From Candidatus Epulonipiscium sp. (GTDB lineage: Bacteria > Bacillota > Clostridia > Lachnospirales > Anaerotignaceae), in the NCBI GenBank assembly GCA_012519385.1, contig JAAYQI010000033.1, positions 1 to 43,043 of the forward strand: DNA of 43,043 bases, given 5' to 3'. The stretch's first letter is position 1. Every line of letters starts with the position of its first letter. Both the position numbers and the translations under genes were made by a program. The notes beneath the pieces are model-generated. The model was not told the origin of the DNA. It made no database searches and saw nothing but the letters and a program-made list of their open reading frames with translations. This document shows positions 13,129 to 21,245 of this stretch, in pieces.

Positions 13129-13156
13129 ATTTAAGCAAGTGACGTTGTATCAGTAT

Positions 13157-13240
13157 GCGGACATGGCGGAACTGGCAGACGCGCCAGACTCAAAATCTGG
13201 TTATGGTGACATAGTGTGGGTTCGATTCCCACTGTCCGCA
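13157..13240 (+). tRNA. tRNA-Leu (anticodon CAA)
   Basis: The 84-nt gene folds as a class II tRNA: acceptor GCGGACA / TGTCCGC with discriminator A, anticodon stem CCAGA / TCTGG around loop CTCAAAA (anticodon CAA at 13191-13193, reads UUG), a long variable arm (TATGGTGACATA region), and T arm GTGGG-TTCGATT-CCCAC. CCA is not encoded. A terminator follows 4 nt later. Confidence 0.97.
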
Positions 13241-13244
13241 GTTT

Positions 13245-13281
13245 AAAAGCCTTCAAAACATTCGTTTTGAAGGCTTTTTTT
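13245..13281. terminator. Bidirectional terminator between tRNA-Leu and the exosortase cluster
   Basis: AAAAGCCTTCAAAAC / GTTTTGAAGGCTTTT with a 4-nt loop; T-run on the plus strand (tRNA) and TTTT on the minus strand for the last gene of the cluster ending at 13296. Confidence 0.92.
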
Positions 13282-13295
13282 GATGTCATCCCCCA

Positions 13296-14363
13296 TTAGG
13301 TATTCTCTTTCTTTTCAGCAAAAACCCATTCTCTTTGCATTTGAAAGCTAATGAAAAATAACATAATATCTACACAGATTTTTATAAAAATTTCCCTTCC
13401 GCCTATCATCCCATAAATCCCCTGTACCAGTGTCGCACTGCTTAACATCTGAATCCCGCATATTATATAATACTTCACCAGTTCAGGTGTTATCTTTTCC
13501 TTGCTATGAAAAACCTGTTTTTTATTTGCGGCAAAATTATAAATAGAAGAAATCCCTCGGGCAACTATTGTACTTATCATAATATAGGAGGCATATTTCC
13601 CCTTTAAAAACATAATGAAAACCTGAAATATCCCAATATCCAGTAAAAACGATGCCGCAGAAGTAAGCACAAATTGAAAAAACAAGGCATAAATCTTCAG
13701 CGAATCCCTGAGTGGATGAAAATGGGTGGTATGCCCACCCTTCTCATACACCGTCTGTATGGGCACCTCTATCAAAGGAATTTTCTTTTTTTTGATAAAC
13801 AAAAGCATATTGGTCTCATATTCAAAGCCTTCCCCCGAAACAGCGATAAATTCCTCCAATAAAGAATAGGGAATTGCCCGTAATCCCGTTTGGGTATCCT
13901 TTAGCCAGATACCGCATAGTAAGCCAAATACTCCATTGGTAATGATATTTCCAAATCTGCTTTTCCAAGGAATTTCCTTGCCATAAAAATTTCGGGACCC
14001 CAAAATCAGAGCATTCTCATGCTGGACTAACGCTTGTGCACAGCTTTCCACATCCTTCGGCAGATGCTGTCCATCAGAATCCACTGTAACCACACCCTTA
14101 CAATCAGGCAAAGCAGAAACCACATAAGAAAAGGCTGTTTTTAACGCTTCCCCTTTTCCCTTATTTTTGTCATGCACCAATATAGTACAGCCATATTCCT
14201 CCTTTGCCTCTTGATAATAGCGGTCATATTGTGATGAACTGCCATCATTGACAATAATCATATGCAAAAATCCTCTTTCCCTCAGTTCTTTCAATAATGC
14301 CAACAGTTTATGAGAAGGGTTCAAAGATGGTATTACGATACTCACTTTGTCACCAATATCCAT
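13296..14363 (-). CDS. GT2 glycosyltransferase fused to a GtrA-like membrane domain
   Basis: Protein of 355 residues. Residues 5-215 form a family 2 glycosyltransferase resembling dolichyl/polyprenyl-phosphate sugar synthases: VSIVIPSLNPSHKL, IIVNDGSS (D40), TVDSDGQH (D95-x-D97), and KDTQTGLRAIP. Residues about 225-350 contain four hydrophobic segments typical of GtrA, ending in a basic tail. Such fusions usually make polyprenyl-phosphate-linked hexose and help it cross the membrane. It is the last gene of the exosortase cluster: the upstream stop is 1 nt before this ATG, and the GGGAGG site lies inside the previous gene, so translation is coupled. The likely role is to supply a lipid-linked sugar for the membrane enzymes of the locus (inference). 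Confidence 0.85.
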   Translation of the reverse strand: MDIGDKVSIVIPSLNPSHKLLALLKELRERGFLHMIIVNDGSSSQYDRYYQEAKEEYGCTILVHDKNKGKGEALKTAFSYVVSALPDCKGVVTVDSDGQHLPKDVESCAQALVQHENALILGSRNFYGKEIPWKSRFGNIITNGVFGLLCGIWLKDTQTGLRAIPYSLLEEFIAVSGEGFEYETNMLLFIKKKKIPLIEVPIQTVYEKGGHTTHFHPLRDSLKIYALFFQFVLTSAASFLLDIGIFQVFIMFLKGKYASYIMISTIVARGISSIYNFAANKKQVFHSKEKITPELVKYYIICGIQMLSSATLVQGIYGMIGGREIFIKICVDIMLFFISFQMQREWVFAEKKENT

Positions 14364-14364
14364 A

Positions 14365-16887
14365 TTAGACCTCCCTGCAATAACCTACAGTTTTACTATG
14401 CTCTTTACGGAACAGATACACAAAAAATATGATACTAAGCAATACACCGCAACAGCTGACTACTATGCCATTTACAAAATACGGATATGTAATGCTAAGC
14501 TCTGTTTTTCCCGCTGAAACATATATTAAATGATTTTTCACCCCTACAGGACGGCTCGCCTGAAAAATATCCAAATGAGATAATGCCGTATTTACACTGC
14601 TTCCTTTGGTTTCAATCACAATCTTATCTGGCTTATAGGTAATGGTAACAGGTACCGTTTTCCGCTGTGGCAATGTTCCATAACTCTCACCAAAAAGTCT
14701 CTCTAATAAAGCTACCACACCTGTATCTCTTGTTAAAAGTGCATGATATACTAAATTAGCCCCCAAAAAGTGAATGTTACCTGTTTCATCTTCCCCAAAA
14801 AATATAACTTCTCTATTTTGAAACGCAGAATGCCCTGTGATGTTTGGCACACCATCCAGATATACGGTATTCCATGTTTCCATATCGTCTGCAAAGTCAA
14901 TGGCTTCATATCGCTTATTCTGATATGTTAAAATAGGATATTTTTCCTCAAAAACAATGGTTTGTGCATATACACGAAGGAATTGGTTGGTTCCTGTCTC
15001 TTGGTCAAAGGGAATTCGGTTCATATCAATAAAAACCTCAACACCCTTGGCCGCCAACTGCCGAATCATATCCTCAGCAGTACCCTTATTGCGATAGGTA
15101 AAGCCTGATAAATAAATCTTTTTATAGTTCAATAATTTTTCTAAAGAATAATCTTCTAGGCATCTGGAATCCCCTTCTTCAAAATCGGCAAAAAGCATTG
15201 CGATATCCTTTGCAGAAGATCCAATGGAAAGGTTTTCATACCTTGTAATGGTTCCAAATGTTCCCGTTACGGGGTATTGAAACAATAACTGCCCCTCTGT
15301 TTCCGATATAAATTGATAACCCGATTGTTTTGCTGCAGTTTTTACTCTACCTAAGTCATATTCTCTCCATTTTAAGAGGTCTTTCGGAATCACAACAACA
15401 TCACTGCCCAATTCCAGCAGTCGGTCAAACAAATACGCATAATGGCCTAACTCCAGTGCAGTATTGATTTGCACCATATTGGTTGCCGTTGCCGCACCTT
15501 CCCACCCTGCACCAAATACATACCGAACCTTAGGCTCCACTCCCGAAATATAATAGGATGCCAAAGAAGAACGACTTAGATTCATAACGGCCATTCTCTG
15601 TTTTGTTAGAGCTTTCGCCTTGGGTAGTGCCTCACGGGTTGCATGGCTTTCCATCACGCTTTTGGTAAATCCATTTCGTTCACTGCTAAGTTTTTGCAAA
15701 TACTGTATAGAAGGGTAACAATCCAATAGCAAAATAACGCCTAATAGCACCACCAGCCACTTTTTTAAACTGCTCCAAAGCATAAAACCCATTAAAATAA
15801 ACACAATGGATAAGGGTACAAATCGTATCATCCATAAATATTGGCTAAACGGTAAAGATGAAAATACTTGATAGGCAGCTTCTCCCGTACAGAGGAATAA
15901 AATAAGCCCTGCCACAAATATAATTCTTGTTTTTTTATGGCTTAACACAGCCCCCATTATACTGATAAAAAATAATGAAATACCATAGTAAAAAACCATC
16001 ATCTCTCCACCCATTCTTTTCCACGGGCTAAGAGATAGCAGTATATTTTGAAAAAAAAGTTTCATTACTTGATTATTGCCTGTGTTATTAGAAACAGCTC
16101 CTCCATGCATGGCTGGCACCAGCCATATCCCCACCACAAGAAAGCCTAAAAAAAACACCAGTATCAGCAAACTCTCAGGACCAAAGCTTTTCCTGCTGAT
16201 TCCATGAAAAATCATCAGTAATAATATAGAGCTTAGTACAATCAGTGCTATCCCCAAATGGCATAGCACCATTAATAAAAATAAAAGGAAAGCGTAGAAT
16301 AAATGTCTTAATTGCTCTCGCTCCAAATATTCCCAAACGGTATAGCAAAAAAATGGCAACAATGCATTGATTACCATTCTTGGTACATTCCCATCCAGTG
16401 TAAGAATGCGGAAATTTTCAGGACAAAAAAACCAGACCAATGCCAAAACAACCGACAAACCTATCCTATTGTACCGCCTACCAAAACATAACCACCCACA
16501 GGAGCCAATAAAAAATAAGCACCCTAAAAATACCCCATAAGCATCAATGGCATTGCCCCCTGTTATGCCATGCACCAATGCCAGAAAATAAAGTGGCAAT
16601 GGACTCCAGTAACGCATGATTTCTACACCGTTATACCACATAGAATCATAGAGGGGATACCAGCGCCCCTGCAGTATATTGCTGAGCAAAGTTTCTCCAC
16701 GATATATGTGGCACAACGTATCTGCACCATCTAAAGCGATATATATCTGTTTTAACACCAAAGATAGTCCTAGAGAAAAAATCAGAAAAAAAACAATCGC
16801 CCCTACTATCTTTATTTCTTCTAAGTAAAAAACGGATGACTCCCTTATTTTTTTAAGAGTAGCTTCCCTTACCTTTTTTTCCTCCAT
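14365..16887 (-). CDS. Large PTPS-related integral membrane protein of the exosortase cluster
   Basis: Protein of 840 residues with a cytoplasmic N-terminus, about 10-12 membrane segments between residues 27 and 400, a large presumably extracytoplasmic domain (about 420-800) and one last membrane segment near 803-830 with a basic tail. The N-terminal region (ALDGADTLCHIYRGETLLSNILQGRWYPLYDSMWYNG, MRYWSPLPLYFLALVHGITGG) resembles the membrane proteins annotated as 6-pyruvoyl-tetrahydropterin-synthase-related, which share the topology of GT-C or YfhO-like glycosyltransferases. An acidic D-A-D in the first periplasmic loop (GADT) would fit a lipid-linked sugar transferase active site. It starts 13 bp after the gene upstream, with a GGGGG site. 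The role as a glycan-transferring enzyme is inference. Confidence 0.72.
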   Translation of the reverse strand: MEEKKVREATLKKIRESSVFYLEEIKIVGAIVFFLIFSLGLSLVLKQIYIALDGADTLCHIYRGETLLSNILQGRWYPLYDSMWYNGVEIMRYWSPLPLYFLALVHGITGGNAIDAYGVFLGCLFFIGSCGWLCFGRRYNRIGLSVVLALVWFFCPENFRILTLDGNVPRMVINALLPFFCYTVWEYLEREQLRHLFYAFLLFLLMVLCHLGIALIVLSSILLLMIFHGISRKSFGPESLLILVFFLGFLVVGIWLVPAMHGGAVSNNTGNNQVMKLFFQNILLSLSPWKRMGGEMMVFYYGISLFFISIMGAVLSHKKTRIIFVAGLILFLCTGEAAYQVFSSLPFSQYLWMIRFVPLSIVFILMGFMLWSSLKKWLVVLLGVILLLDCYPSIQYLQKLSSERNGFTKSVMESHATREALPKAKALTKQRMAVMNLSRSSLASYYISGVEPKVRYVFGAGWEGAATATNMVQINTALELGHYAYLFDRLLELGSDVVVIPKDLLKWREYDLGRVKTAAKQSGYQFISETEGQLLFQYPVTGTFGTITRYENLSIGSSAKDIAMLFADFEEGDSRCLEDYSLEKLLNYKKIYLSGFTYRNKGTAEDMIRQLAAKGVEVFIDMNRIPFDQETGTNQFLRVYAQTIVFEEKYPILTYQNKRYEAIDFADDMETWNTVYLDGVPNITGHSAFQNREVIFFGEDETGNIHFLGANLVYHALLTRDTGVVALLERLFGESYGTLPQRKTVPVTITYKPDKIVIETKGSSVNTALSHLDIFQASRPVGVKNHLIYVSAGKTELSITYPYFVNGIVVSCCGVLLSIIFFVYLFRKEHSKTVGYCREV

Positions 16888-16899
16888 GCTTGTTCCCCC

Positions 16900-18087
16900 T
16901 TATTGAATCTCAAAAGGTATCTCTATGAGATAAGACCTTGTGGGTGTTTCACTACACTCAAATTGTGTTAATATCCACCCAGATTCTTGTAGGATAACAG
17001 TAATTTCATTTTTAAAATATTCGCTAATATTTTCTAACGATGGATTTAGTGTATCAAAAGGAGCAATGGTATTGATGGTTTGATCCTGATATTTTGCGAA
17101 AAGTGCATCAATTTTGTCCTCTATTTCATTGAATAACACAAATTCATCCTTCTGCTTCACCATTTGAATCATGACCTGCCAAGTGTGAGGGTGGATATCC
17201 CCCTCTTTGCCATCAATCATAATAGAATGATATGCATTCAAATAAAACTTCAGCCGATACTGGCGGTAGAGTGCTCTTTTTTCAAGAATTACCTTAGGCT
17301 CTTCTATCTGCTCCTTGGGCATCTTCCGCTCTTCCGCTTCCATTCTCTGGGCAGAATCCTCATCAGTTAAATATTTTTCTGAACTTAAAGCAGAAACTTG
17401 GCAATTTTTTTTCAGCACTTCTTGTTTTAAAGAAAATATCTCCCTTTTGGCTCTCACCAATTCTTTATGAAACAGCAACACGCTACAAAGAGAAACAGCA
17501 CCCAGCAGCAATATCCCCAGTGTGATATAGGTATGGTGTACTCTGGTTTGACTTTGGTTCGTGATAAAGTCCTTACTGGTGCAAAGCATTAAATGATAGA
17601 TTTGTCCCGAAAGTTGAATACTCCCCGAAGATATTATAAACTTTTGCTGATATTGGTCAGAAACCACCTTGCTAAAAAATCCTCTTTTCCCAATTTCTTT
17701 ATAAAAATTGATATTTTCCTCCTGAGGAAAATAATTTGTGATAGGCAATTTTATGTATTGCTTTGTGACAGCATTATTTTTATAAAACACAATTTGCCTT
17801 CCCTGGCATAGTATCCAGTAGCGACTGCCCGAAGTCACATTTTCCTCAAAATAATCCGTAAGCTGTTGCAAAACCTCCTCCACGGTTTCACCCTTTTGGC
17901 TCATATTTTCCGAAAACGCAACAACCTGTTTTATCAACAATAACTGTTCTTCTCCGTAGCGTTCCAAAAGCACCTGTTGGTGTTTGCCTTCTTCAACGCT
18001 ATTAAAAAAGAGAATTCCAACAAAACATAATACTATCACTATAATTCTTTTTTTGTTTGAACTAGGTATTTTCAATATTTGTTTCAT
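16900..18087 (-). CDS. Membrane-anchored 6-pyruvoyl-tetrahydropterin synthase-like protein, exosortase G-associated
   Basis: Protein of 395 residues: membrane segment at 14-29, an extracytoplasmic domain at 30-185, a second membrane segment at 188-206, a charged coiled-coil stretch at 208-265, and a cytoplasmic PTPS/QueD-like domain at 273-395. The zinc ligands of that fold are kept as H287 (YLNAYHSI) and H299/H301 (DIHPHTWQV), with NPSLENISEYF and the late acidic ECSETPTRSY. The catalytic cysteine normally found before the HxH motif is absent, so pterin synthesis is doubtful. The membrane tether and sensor-like outer domain suggest a regulatory or scaffolding task. It matches, from memory, the TIGR03112-type family found next to XrtG. 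Start ATG 18087 is 11 bp from the previous stop, with AGGAT upstream. Confidence 0.75.
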   Translation of the reverse strand: MKQILKIPSSNKKRIIVIVLCFVGILFFNSVEEGKHQQVLLERYGEEQLLLIKQVVAFSENMSQKGETVEEVLQQLTDYFEENVTSGSRYWILCQGRQIVFYKNNAVTKQYIKLPITNYFPQEENINFYKEIGKRGFFSKVVSDQYQQKFIISSGSIQLSGQIYHLMLCTSKDFITNQSQTRVHHTYITLGILLLGAVSLCSVLLFHKELVRAKREIFSLKQEVLKKNCQVSALSSEKYLTDEDSAQRMEAEERKMPKEQIEEPKVILEKRALYRQYRLKFYLNAYHSIMIDGKEGDIHPHTWQVMIQMVKQKDEFVLFNEIEDKIDALFAKYQDQTINTIAPFDTLNPSLENISEYFKNEITVILQESGWILTQFECSETPTRSYLIEIPFEIQ

Positions 18088-18098
18088 GTTTGGTTATC

Positions 18099-19487
18099 CT
18101 ATTCTTCAAAGTTTTTTTCGTTTTCCACATTCACAAACCCACGAAGGGTAGCCAGCCATTGTAATGGCCTTGCTATCATATTCTCTGTTTCTTGTACGGC
18201 AGCCCTTCCTTCTTCTGTTAAATTTCTGGTGCGCCAACTGCCCTGGCTATCAATGCTATTGATAATGCCCGCCAAGCGTATCCAAAATATCATAAAATTA
18301 AAAAAAGGAAGCAGCGCAATCAAAAGTCCACATTTTCGATAGTATTTTTTTATCTCGGGAAAATCCGCCAAATATCTAATAATGGAGAAATAGTATAAGT
18401 ATGCCGAAATAATATATAATCCAAAAATTAACCCCATAGAGAATATGATTAATCTCATGGAATAATTTTTAAATACTAAGCATCCCAAGGCAAAATACCA
18501 AATCATTCTGGGAAAGGCAAATGTGTGGTCATACAGTAACGTACGAAACATCAAGCTTCTGGCAAGAAGGTTTGCAGTAGGCAACCTTTTATTAAAAAAC
18601 AAACGAGAAACCTCTATTTCGCCCCTCTGCCATCTTTGCCTTTGGGTATAGAGCTGATTTATCCCGCTGATAGGCTCCGATAAAAAAATGGCATTCTCGC
18701 ATAAGTAAATCCTTTGTTTTAGCAAAAATCTCACTTGAAAGGTAACTTGCGTATCCTCCGATACAGTTCCTGTATGATATAACTGAGATTTTAAAATGGT
18801 GGATTTACGAAAAGCAGAAAATGCGCCCGATACTGTAAAAATAGAGTTTAACTCGGAATCAAAGTTCCTTCCTGATAAAAAAGCCTGAGCATATTCACAA
18901 AATTCCAGTCGTTGCAGTAATCTTTTCCAATAAGATTTCTCCTGCCTAATCAAATCTTTGTCTGTTAAAATAACACCTGTCATACAGCCAATCTCAGAAT
19001 CTGCTTCAAAGCGATTCACCATATTTTTTAGGGCATCTTCTTGTAATCTTCCATCGCTGTCGATATGGATAATGTATTTTCCCTCACTATTATATAGCGC
19101 AAGATTTAATGCCTTGGCCTTTCCCTGCTTAGAATTAAGCCACTGCATCATTAGTTCAGGAAATTCCCTCTGACATTCTTGAAAAATTTCAAAGCTATTA
19201 TCCTGCCCCTCATTATGTATCAAATAAATACGCATTAAATGCCGTGGATACGTAGAATGATAAATGGAAGCAATGCAGCTTTTTAACGTATCCGCTGAGT
19301 TATATACGGGGATAATAATACAAATCTCCGGATAATTGGTTATAGGTTCTACTGGTTTTTGAACTATCTTCTTTTTGACAAGGATAAAAAATCCCCCGAT
19401 TGCAGGAAGAATCTCTACCAAAAGCGGAATAATAATCCATGACATCCAAAAAACAATAGAACTGCAAAGAAAATCAAGGATTCTCAT
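18099..19487 (-). CDS. Processive-type family 2 glycosyltransferase, exosortase G-associated
   Basis: Membrane glycosyltransferase of 462 residues. Membrane segments near residues 6-37 precede a GT2 domain: CIIIPVYNSADTLKSC (56-71), HIDSDG (D143-x-D145), TVSEDTQ (E244-D245) and the QxxRW motif Q282-W286 (QRQRW), which marks processive synthases such as cellulose, hyaluronan and PNAG synthases. Three or more membrane segments follow at about 320-415. It probably builds a polysaccharide and threads it across the membrane, or acts as a related single-addition enzyme. The gene overlaps the exosortase gene by 14 bp and its GGAGG site lies inside that gene. It corresponds, from memory, to the TIGR03111-type partner of XrtG. 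Confidence 0.85.
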   Translation of the reverse strand: MRILDFLCSSIVFWMSWIIIPLLVEILPAIGGFFILVKKKIVQKPVEPITNYPEICIIIPVYNSADTLKSCIASIYHSTYPRHLMRIYLIHNEGQDNSFEIFQECQREFPELMMQWLNSKQGKAKALNLALYNSEGKYIIHIDSDGRLQEDALKNMVNRFEADSEIGCMTGVILTDKDLIRQEKSYWKRLLQRLEFCEYAQAFLSGRNFDSELNSIFTVSGAFSAFRKSTILKSQLYHTGTVSEDTQVTFQVRFLLKQRIYLCENAIFLSEPISGINQLYTQRQRWQRGEIEVSRLFFNKRLPTANLLARSLMFRTLLYDHTFAFPRMIWYFALGCLVFKNYSMRLIIFSMGLIFGLYIISAYLYYFSIIRYLADFPEIKKYYRKCGLLIALLPFFNFMIFWIRLAGIINSIDSQGSWRTRNLTEEGRAAVQETENMIARPLQWLATLRGFVNVENEKNFEE

Positions 19488-20061
19488 AACGTAACCCTCC
19501 TATCCTTTGCCTAATGATATGGGCACGAGTAAATACATAGTAGTATAATGCTATAGAAAATCCGTAAAATATTAACCTGCCTAAAATGGTATGGGCAATA
19601 TAATAGGAATCACTGCCTGCCCAGTAAATCAGCGTACAAATGGCATGAATCCGCAGTACATTTGCCATAAAAATCCACAAAACTCCAATGATGCTGACAA
19701 TAATCTTTTCTAAAACCTCATAGACCGGGAAAAACCATAGCATTGATAAAAACACCATAATCTCAATCACACCAGAACACTCATAGTCAATATAAAGGGA
19801 AATGGCGGAATCTTTATTTTCAATAAATAATACGCCATATTCAAAATACGGCACATACATCCTAGTTAGCTCTCCCAAAAAACCTGCTACCAATGATACA
19901 AATCGGGACAAGTGGACTGTCATAATGGGCTCCGCCCAAATCATAAAAGAAATGAATAAACCGACACTCCCCCATAAAAACCTCCAAAACTTTAGCTGTG
20001 CTCGGTGCAGCACCTCCAGCACAAAAAGCCAAACTATAAAATAGATAACCTTTGCTGTCAT
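19474..20061 (-). CDS. xrtG: Exosortase family protein, XrtG type
   Basis: Multi-pass membrane cysteine protease/transpeptidase of 195 residues with about five to six membrane segments. The exosortase/archaeosortase catalytic residues are all present: C95 in DYECSGVIE, R137 in NVLRIHA and H157 in IAHTILGR. Exosortases are thought to cleave a C-terminal tripartite sorting signal and pass the protein to another anchor. The start is ATG at 20061, because its ATGA overlaps the stop of the substrate gene and a GAGGTG site lies 6 nt upstream; a longer reading from 20130 runs inside the upstream gene. The adjacent tailed protein (20058-20810) is the obvious substrate. Assignment to XrtG rests on size, neighbours and Gram-positive host, from memory of the family descriptions. 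Confidence 0.87.
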   Translation of the reverse strand: MTAKVIYFIVWLFVLEVLHRAQLKFWRFLWGSVGLFISFMIWAEPIMTVHLSRFVSLVAGFLGELTRMYVPYFEYGVLFIENKDSAISLYIDYECSGVIEIMVFLSMLWFFPVYEVLEKIIVSIIGVLWIFMANVLRIHAICTLIYWAGSDSYYIAHTILGRLIFYGFSIALYYYVFTRAHIIRQRIGGLRYENP

Positions 20062-20810
20062 ATTGCACACCTCATAGGAAGGGATTTCCGATGCCTGTGC
20101 CATAGTATTGCTGCAACAGTACCTATGCAAAATACAACTCCCACCACTGGTCCAGTAGAGGTACCCACAGCCACCAATGCTACTGGCTCTGCAATCACAT
20201 TAGGATTCCACACTTCAATTTTGCTAATTGTATCTAAGTTTAGGTTCTTATGCTTTGTTGTAAAAGCAGTGTAAGGAATTTTCATTTCAAACTCATCCTG
20301 ACCATTGCCCCCAGGAACATAGAGGTAGGCCTTGGAATTAGGAATCTGAACATCCCTATCCGTACTGCTGCCATCATGGTTATACCTTACATAGTATGAA
20401 TTTCTGCCAACAGGCCCTCCAAAAATAGGGGTGCTATTTTGTCCTCCTGCCGTACAGATATTGAGGACAATTTCATATCTTCCATTTGCCCTAAAATGAA
20501 ACTGATTTCCGTTAAAAGAATCTTTCCAAGCCTTTATCATTTTGATATGAAAATAAACGTACTCTCCATCACAAAATAAGGAGGCATATCTCATCTGAGA
20601 ATTAGGCGGAGTCCAACCAGTTGGTACCCAGTTGGTCACATAGGAATGTGGCTTATCCGCCCAGTCATCAAAATAGCCATCAATCACAACATTGCCGTAG
20701 GTATTTGTATTTCCTCCTAATGCATATACAGGCAGTACACTTGAAATACTAATACAAATTGAAATAAAAAAAGCCATCCCTGCTTGAATCCTCTTTTTGC
20801 CATAAGTCAT
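20058..20810 (-). CDS. Secreted protein with C-terminal sorting tail (Firmicu-CTERM-like), probable exosortase substrate
   Basis: Precursor of 250 residues. Signal peptide at 1-30 (basic start, hydrophobic core, likely cut after VYA). The mature domain begins VVIDGYFDDWADKPHS, similar to the opening of CBM9/DOMON-type sugar- or ligand-binding beta-sandwich domains, and continues with VYFHIKMIKAWKDS and FHFRANGRYEIVLNI. The tail has the three parts expected of a sorting signal: short motif TSTGP at 217-221, a hydrophobic segment to about 237, and the basic cluster HRHRK at 238-242. This resembles the Firmicu-CTERM tail I recall as paired with XrtG. The stop overlaps the exosortase start (ATGA). 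A single substrate next to its enzyme implies a dedicated system. The start ATG at 20810 follows the previous stop by 5 bp. Confidence 0.78.
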   Translation of the reverse strand: MTYGKKRIQAGMAFFISICISISSVLPVYALGGNTNTYGNVVIDGYFDDWADKPHSYVTNWVPTGWTPPNSQMRYASLFCDGEYVYFHIKMIKAWKDSFNGNQFHFRANGRYEIVLNICTAGGQNSTPIFGGPVGRNSYYVRYNHDGSSTDRDVQIPNSKAYLYVPGGNGQDEFEMKIPYTAFTTKHKNLNLDTISKIEVWNPNVIAEPVALVAVGTSTGPVVGVVFCIGTVAAILWHRHRKSLPMRCAI

Positions 20811-20815
20811 AATAC

Positions 20816-21172
20816 TTATCCCCCCATTCTTCCCGTCACCCTGTATGTACGCAAGGGTGTTTCGCTAATTTCTAGCATCACCAAATGGTATTGGTGCTTC
20901 TCTAACAATTCTGAAAGCTGCAGATAGAAAAAATCCCCCAAGTTTTCTATGGTAGGAGATACCTCCTGCCACTGCTCCATCTCATTCAGATATTTCCCGT
21001 TATATTGTTCCAGATAATTTTCTACTAGTTCGTCAATTTTTTTATAATTGAGCATAGATTCCTTTTCATTCAGCTTAATATAAATAAAAATCTCTAAGGT
21101 ATGTATATGCTTATTCTGAATGTTCTGATTCATGCTATGCTCCATTGGAAGCCGATATCCGCACTTATACAA
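20816..21172 (-). CDS. Small 6-pyruvoyl-tetrahydropterin synthase-like protein, first gene of the exosortase cluster
   Basis: Soluble PTPS/QueD-fold protein of about 118 residues from TTG at 21172. Using numbering from the upstream ATG (21199), zinc-type histidines are H21 (LPMEHSM) and H31/H33 (NKHIHTLEI), followed by SPTIENLGDFF and ISETPLRTYRV, the conserved second half of the fold. As in the membrane-anchored paralogue two genes later in function (16900-18087), the catalytic cysteine before HxH is missing. The ATG at 21199 would leave a leader of only about 11 nt without a ribosome site, while TTG has GGGGG about 11 nt upstream, so TTG is preferred. It opens the operon behind the strong promoter at 21217-21245. 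Function unknown; perhaps a pterin-like ligand sensor. Confidence 0.7.
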   Translation of the reverse strand: MYKCGYRLPMEHSMNQNIQNKHIHTLEIFIYIKLNEKESMLNYKKIDELVENYLEQYNGKYLNEMEQWQEVSPTIENLGDFFYLQLSELLEKHQYHLVMLEISETPLRTYRVTGRMGG

Positions 21173-21216
21173 AATATGCCCTACCCCCTTTAGAAACATA
21201 TTTTTTTATTTGGCTC

Positions 21217-21245
21217 ATTATATCATAGCTCTATTGGGTATGCAA
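21217..21245 (-). promoter_or_regulatory. Sigma-A promoter of the exosortase cluster
   Basis: Minus strand TTGCAT, 17 bp, then TGA-TATAAT (extended -10). The start of transcription is predicted near 21210. No other clear promoter was seen between this and 13296, and gene gaps inside are 12 bp or less, so the seven genes are likely one operon. Confidence 0.82.

Follow-up and report, generated by a model that had tools for sequence, protein, structure and literature searches.

We analysed a 43,043-nucleotide stretch of DNA from Candidatus Epulonipiscium sp. (contig JAAYQI010000033.1; hereafter the window), which carries at positions 13296–21172 of its minus strand a cluster of seven same-strand genes that includes an exosortase of the XrtG type and the gene for its tailed substrate. 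These genes are best explained, with a probability that we place at roughly 0.5, as an XrtG-type, synthase-dependent surface-polysaccharide machine: a surface polysaccharide and a single tail-cut surface protein are the probable products of the locus, and once clipped by XrtG this dedicated outer-face protein probably acts at the synthase or close to it. XrtG loci have long been named in family databases. The comparison described below makes XrtG function testable, in that the core components are gained or lost as a set and the substrate is matched one-to-one with the enzyme, and a natural cysteine-less, substrate-fused form of the enzyme provides a clear handle on the purpose of tail cutting.

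Six of the seven proteins belong to named NCBIfam or Pfam families with scores above the cut-off, while the seventh (gene 7) has GT2 and GtrA domains (Table 1). The curated cut-offs are 102.75 bits for TIGR03110, 363.95 for TIGR03111, 50 for TIGR04145 and 69.35 for TIGR03112, the last of which is passed by both PTPS-related copies of the window. The PTPS domain profile matched at 55 and 56 bits, and GtrA at 37 bits. As judged by these profiles, the scores leave no room for chance matching, and the locus is complete and looks like an ordinary representative of a known, functionally unexplained bacterial cluster. A sequence-only reading of this DNA had placed the seven genes at these positions, had described them as a complete XrtG locus of a kind named in family databases and had given the TIGR03110–03112 and TIGR04145 numbers; the seven-gene layout was confirmed, the numbers were correct, and the profile search, in which all four were over cut-off, bore out both the naming and the completeness.

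We compared the window with ~40 further loci drawn from whole genomes and plasmids. The TIGR03111 glycosyltransferase directly follows XrtG in all 36 loci whose contig continues, as anticipated by the earlier expectation of conserved synteny in related genomes, and wherever an intact locus has upstream sequence a CTERM domain adjoins XrtG, the exception being L038, where it comes after the glycosyltransferase. XrtG was found in 12 genomes of a 398-genome draw (plus one weak match, 23.6 bits), while TIGR03112 over cut-off and strong PF10131 were each found in 11. These are one set of 11 genomes, each of which has XrtG as well, and among the 398 neither a strong match to PF10131 nor one to TIGR03112 over cut-off occurred outside the XrtG genomes. 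The distribution of the system is sporadic, the window's genome being the only one of 36 from its own family to carry it. Counted apart from the 36 loci is a broken, in-frame XrtG–GT2 fusion in genome G070 (L050:9585-11033), from which a piece of the glycosyltransferase is missing; over-cut-off TIGR03112 and PF10131 were not found in this genome, and the locus is probably decaying.

The Firmicu-CTERM protein (gene 2), which has a signal peptide and a tail built of motif, helix and basic residues, is the sole protein of its kind found in its genome and is encoded beside xrtG, in agreement with the single dedicated substrate proposed by the sequence-only reading. Matches to TIGR04145 are confined to the XrtG cluster, one weak match in G366 aside, indicating one dedicated substrate per system. 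In the order of steps that we infer, the protein would cross the membrane via its signal peptide, be held there by its C-terminal helix and be cleaved around Gly-Pro by the Cys-Arg-His center of XrtG, after which the IDGxFDDW ectodomain would handle nascent glycan near the membrane complex. C95, R137 and H157 of the window XrtG, which lie in membrane helices and are numbered from the ATG at 20061, align with all unfused homologues, and with this start the residue numbers proposed earlier are exact. The clustering of one substrate, one enzyme and one synthase, as well as the intact triad, would also be expected if XrtG were a transpeptidase that forms a covalent bond between the tailed protein and the glycan, lipid-linked or extruded, of the same locus; exosortases have been proposed to be transpeptidases tied to exopolysaccharide (PMC1569441). 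However, a glycan acceptor is without support here, and a group of relatives described next argues further against this account, which we regard as doubtful.

In nine loci (L029, L030, L044, L046, L063 and L067–L070), a CTERM ectodomain is fused to the N-terminus of XrtG, resulting in proteins of ~400 residues (354 in L070, which lies at a contig end). The ectodomain of these proteins is without a tail helix of its own, and helix 1 of XrtG comes directly after it. Whereas the catalytic cysteine is kept in 30/30 unfused XrtGs (27/27 plus those of three plasmid loci), it is replaced by asparagine in 9/9 fused XrtGs (ENSG for ECSG); the arginine and histidine are retained in every XrtG reaching that far, L070 ending before the histidine. 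Ratios of nonsynonymous to synonymous substitution (dN/dS) in the fused XrtGs were ~0.07–0.13 where dS was measurable, demonstrating purifying selection, and hence the domain is not decaying. Likewise, the glycosyltransferase beside the fused XrtG keeps every catalytic motif. Because genome G074, which belongs to this group, consists of a single contig, an assembly error is unlikely to account for the fused form. Genome G846 has two near-identical fused loci, L067 and L068, each on its own contig.

The simplest reading of these relatives is that the cysteine normally cuts the CTERM tail and that, once the ectodomain has been welded to XrtG, the cut is unneeded and the ectodomain acts at the membrane complex. 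Since the ectodomain is held permanently in a nucleophile-less XrtG while the glycosyltransferases remain intact, the system can evidently be kept without transfer to a separate glycan. In other words, the ectodomain cannot leave XrtG in the fused clade, yet the system is kept, so that attachment to glycan cannot be obligatory there. The sequence-only reading had held both that the locus builds a glycan and that the tailed protein is joined to it; the former is supported by the predicted glycosyltransferases, while the latter found no support. The fused clade does not reveal the fate of the cut protein in the window, whose cysteine is intact. XrtG might there cut the tail and pass the protein on to the amine of a membrane lipid, by analogy with archaeosortase ArtA, to give a lipid-anchored protein beside the synthase, a possibility that we entertain tentatively. 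It would explain why a clade could replace the anchor by XrtG's own helix, and ArtA has been modelled as attaching the lipid archaetidylethanolamine, in terms called speculative in that work (PMC7157517), but lipid-biosynthesis genes were not recognised among the profiled cluster members. We consider it unlikely that XrtG is instead a membrane scaffold holding a glycan-handling ectodomain at the polysaccharide synthase, with tail cutting non-essential, that the dead PTPS-related domains constitute a novel type of receptor, which gates the synthase in response to a guanine nucleotide (possibly cyclic di-guanosine monophosphate, c-di-GMP) or a pterin, and that the Cys-to-Asn clade is a natural knock-out showing this.

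If the locus is the polysaccharide machine that we favor, gene 4 would polymerise and extrude the glycan, gene 7 would make and flip a polyprenyl-phosphate sugar, and gene 6 would add that sugar, at the outer face, to the glycan or to some other acceptor. Among known synthases, PgaC/IcaA are relatives of gene 4, and the nearest NCBIfam relatives of gene 7 are AglJ and PpgS, both below cut-off. The presence of a putative processive glycosyltransferase together with a putative lipid-linked-sugar branch (GT2-GtrA plus a GT-C-type protein) is well supported by sequence. Genes 7 and 6 also display a layout of GT2, GtrA and multi-helix enzyme that we take to resemble the YfhO system, as would be expected if the glycosyltransferases were to glycosylate teichoic or lipoteichoic acid as a CsbB/GtcA/YfhO-like three-component system, no exopolysaccharide being made. 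This seems to us rather improbable, given the relationship of gene 4 to PgaC/IcaA and the finding that XrtG, PF10131 and the TIGR03111 enzyme persist without GT2/GtrA genes in several loci (e.g. L031, L034, L041 and L071). At L034:9717-12617, the TIGR03111 glycosyltransferase continues in-frame into a long membrane and sulfatase-like extension (LtaS-like by eye), for a total of 966 amino acids. The extracellular part of gene 6, at residues ~575–650, bears a weak likeness to beta-galactosidase domains (5gsl, E=0.048).

Fusions in the window and its relatives connect most of the components. PTPS is joined to PF10131 in L042, L035 and L044, and PTPS, PF10131 and CTERM form one protein of ~1,300 residues in L043 and L047, with the same layout in L048. 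Conversely, the sensor–PTPS and GT2–GtrA fusions of the window are separate genes in L014, L016, L032 and L033. Since joined genes usually mean joined function, the PTPS, PF10131, CTERM, XrtG and sensor components most likely form one membrane assembly, to which gene 4 is tied by adjacency only.

Both PTPS-related copies in the window retain the three zinc histidines as well as a glutamate (in SETPTR or SETPLR) that in PTPS enzymes anchors the pterin ring. Alignment to solved relatives revealed that the catalytic cysteine and the Asp-His dyad are absent from both copies and across the family. The nearest solved relatives include proteins that are likewise without cysteine at that position, and its absence alone is therefore no proof of inactivity; nevertheless, with both catalytic sites missing and the domain fused to membrane proteins, a sensor is more likely than an enzyme. 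These domains resemble catalytically dead sensors that bind a ligand and are joined to the membrane machinery, and those of genes 1 and 5 may couple the cytosolic nucleotide or pterin state to the synthase, with gene 5 reading an outside signal that would be relayed to it. It is very improbable that they are active pterin or queuosine enzymes supplying a small molecule for the pathway: although the PTPS and QueD profiles match weakly and the zinc histidines are retained, the catalytic residues are lost family-wide, the domains are fused to membrane proteins, and, in the 398-genome draw, over-cut-off matches occur only in XrtG genomes.

Residues 1–260 of gene 5 are homologous to stand-alone sensor proteins of other XrtG loci. 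The usual C-terminal domain of the sensor in relatives resembles a degenerate GGDEF (hhalign 85.7%), with weak Pfam GGDEF matches in L032, and a sensor in the XrtG cluster of L036 (11582-13366) carries an intact-looking GGDEF (GGGEF) plus HD at the place where the others are degenerate. In addition, PAS-GGDEF and EAL genes lie directly upstream of the XrtG operon on a Lactococcus plasmid (L072:4413-6098). At the level of sequence, the GGDEF/EAL neighbourhood and the degenerate GGDEF point to c-di-GMP, and the PTPS and GGDEF-like modules suggest nucleotide control of the system.

Several observations weigh against the polysaccharide machine as set out above. The nine fused loci form one clade (support 93/97), and so fusion and cysteine loss represent a single event and a single observation; treating them as nine independent events was rejected. 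GGDEF proteins were present in 32/32 XrtG genomes tested versus 160/196 genomes of the class, a base rate so high that co-occurrence of c-di-GMP enzymes at the genome level proves little, and enrichment was dropped as an argument. The gene 2 ectodomain failed to match carbohydrate-binding folds significantly (best match CBM9 1i82, E=0.33) and had no Pfam match, while its AlphaFold model (3 sequences) was too poor to use, with a predicted local distance difference test score (pLDDT) of 38. For a CBM9/DOMON identity of the ectodomain there was a motif that hints at it but no significant match. The AlphaFold model of gene 6 (2 sequences, pLDDT 36) was likewise too poor to use, and its GT-C assignment consequently depends on the acidic motif seen in the first loop and on PF10131 being, as we take it, placed in Pfam's GT-C clan.

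As summarized in Table 1, the genes are closely packed. The junctions measure, in order, +5, -4, -14, +11, +12 and +1 bp; thus, the gaps of 12 bp or less described by the sequence-only reading hold, and its several overlaps come down to two. The ATGA at the xrtG start overlaps the stop codon of the CTERM gene. The best start of gene 1 is the TTG at 21172, preceded by AAGGGGGT, the upstream ATG at 21199 being without a ribosome site. A candidate promoter, TATAAT with an upstream TG (extended -10), lies ~20 bp before ATG 21199. The one strong promoter claimed earlier is borne out only in part: the -35 (TTGCAT) is weak, and a consensus scan of the region found 31 promoters versus 32.7 in shuffled sequence, which is not above chance. 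GC content was 38.0% in the cluster versus 39.2–39.7% in the flanks, a difference that is not telling, and recent acquisition judged by base composition was dropped. With respect to a defence role, PADLOC returned no match for genes 3–6. The 3' end of the cluster is closely followed by a tRNA-Leu (caa) gene and a terminator hairpin (window 13156-13278).

Table 1. Features of the XrtG cluster in the window, with profile scores in bits.
Feature	Position	Strand	Evidence
Gene 1: small cytosolic PTPS-related protein, 118 aa, TTG start	20816..21172	-	TIGR03112 95.4; three zinc-ligand His and base-anchoring Glu kept
Gene 2: Firmicu-CTERM protein, 250 aa; signal peptide, IDGYFDDW ectodomain, tail GTSTGP + hydrophobic helix + RHRK	20058..20810	-	TIGR04145 96.3
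Gene 3: XrtG exosortase, 195 aa, C95/R137/H157	19474..20061	-	TIGR03110 208.8; triad conserved in unfused homologues
Gene 4: processive GT2 membrane glycosyltransferase	18099..19487	-	TIGR03111 613.2; DSD / ED / QRQRW motifs intact
Gene 5: two-helix membrane sensor with extracellular domain, fused to cytosolic PTPS-related domain	16900..18087	-	TIGR03112 145.1, residues 277-389
Gene 6: PF10131 multi-helix membrane protein, large extracellular domain, GT-C-like first-loop motif	14365..16887	-	PF10131 490; conserved xDxxxH...WYNG...RYWxP
Gene 7: GT2 fused to GtrA/DPMS membrane domain, polyprenyl-phosphate-sugar synthase type	13296..14363	-	PF00535 + PF04138
Candidate extended -10 element TGaTATAAT before gene 1	21219..21224, approximate to a base or two	-	read from sequence

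We found no account of the locked co-occurrence, the fusions, the Cys-to-Asn clade or the apparently dead PTPS domains in the open-licence literature searched, in which XrtG is named only as an expression correlate of self-aggregating Lactobacillus plantarum; the XrtG locus of that species is over-expressed in type-I-interferon-inducing strains (PMC12854382). Among known loci, that on a Lachnospira eligens plasmid (EUBELI_RS12440-12415) has the order CTERM, xrtG, TIGR03111 glycosyltransferase, sensor, PTPS and PF10131, as in the window, which differs in that sensor and PTPS are fused, an extra small PTPS gene comes first and a GT2-GtrA gene comes last. The Lactococcus lactis pBV60 locus (L072) shares CTERM, xrtG, the TIGR03111 glycosyltransferase and PTPS with the window; unlike the window, it has GGDEF and EAL genes directly upstream, and a TIGR03766 glycosyltransferase replaces PF10131. 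The Gram-negative PEP-CTERM/EpsH exosortase systems resemble the window in their Cys-Arg-His membrane enzyme, tailed secreted substrates and link to exopolysaccharide, but have 1–65 substrates per genome, in contrast to the single one encoded beside the enzyme in the window (PMC1569441). ArtA belongs to an enzyme superfamily related to the window XrtG (TIGR04178 match), although its proposed lipid acceptor and the PssA/PssD genes have no counterpart in the window cluster (PMC7157517). Finally, BcsA/PgaC-like synthases regulated by c-di-GMP resemble XrtG loci in having genes for c-di-GMP turnover or for its receptors next to a GT2 synthase, as exemplified by the c-di-GMP-linked, PgaC-like synthase of L. 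acidophilus gts, whose receptor is a degenerate EAL protein rather than PTPS and for which no exosortase is mentioned (PMC6123363).

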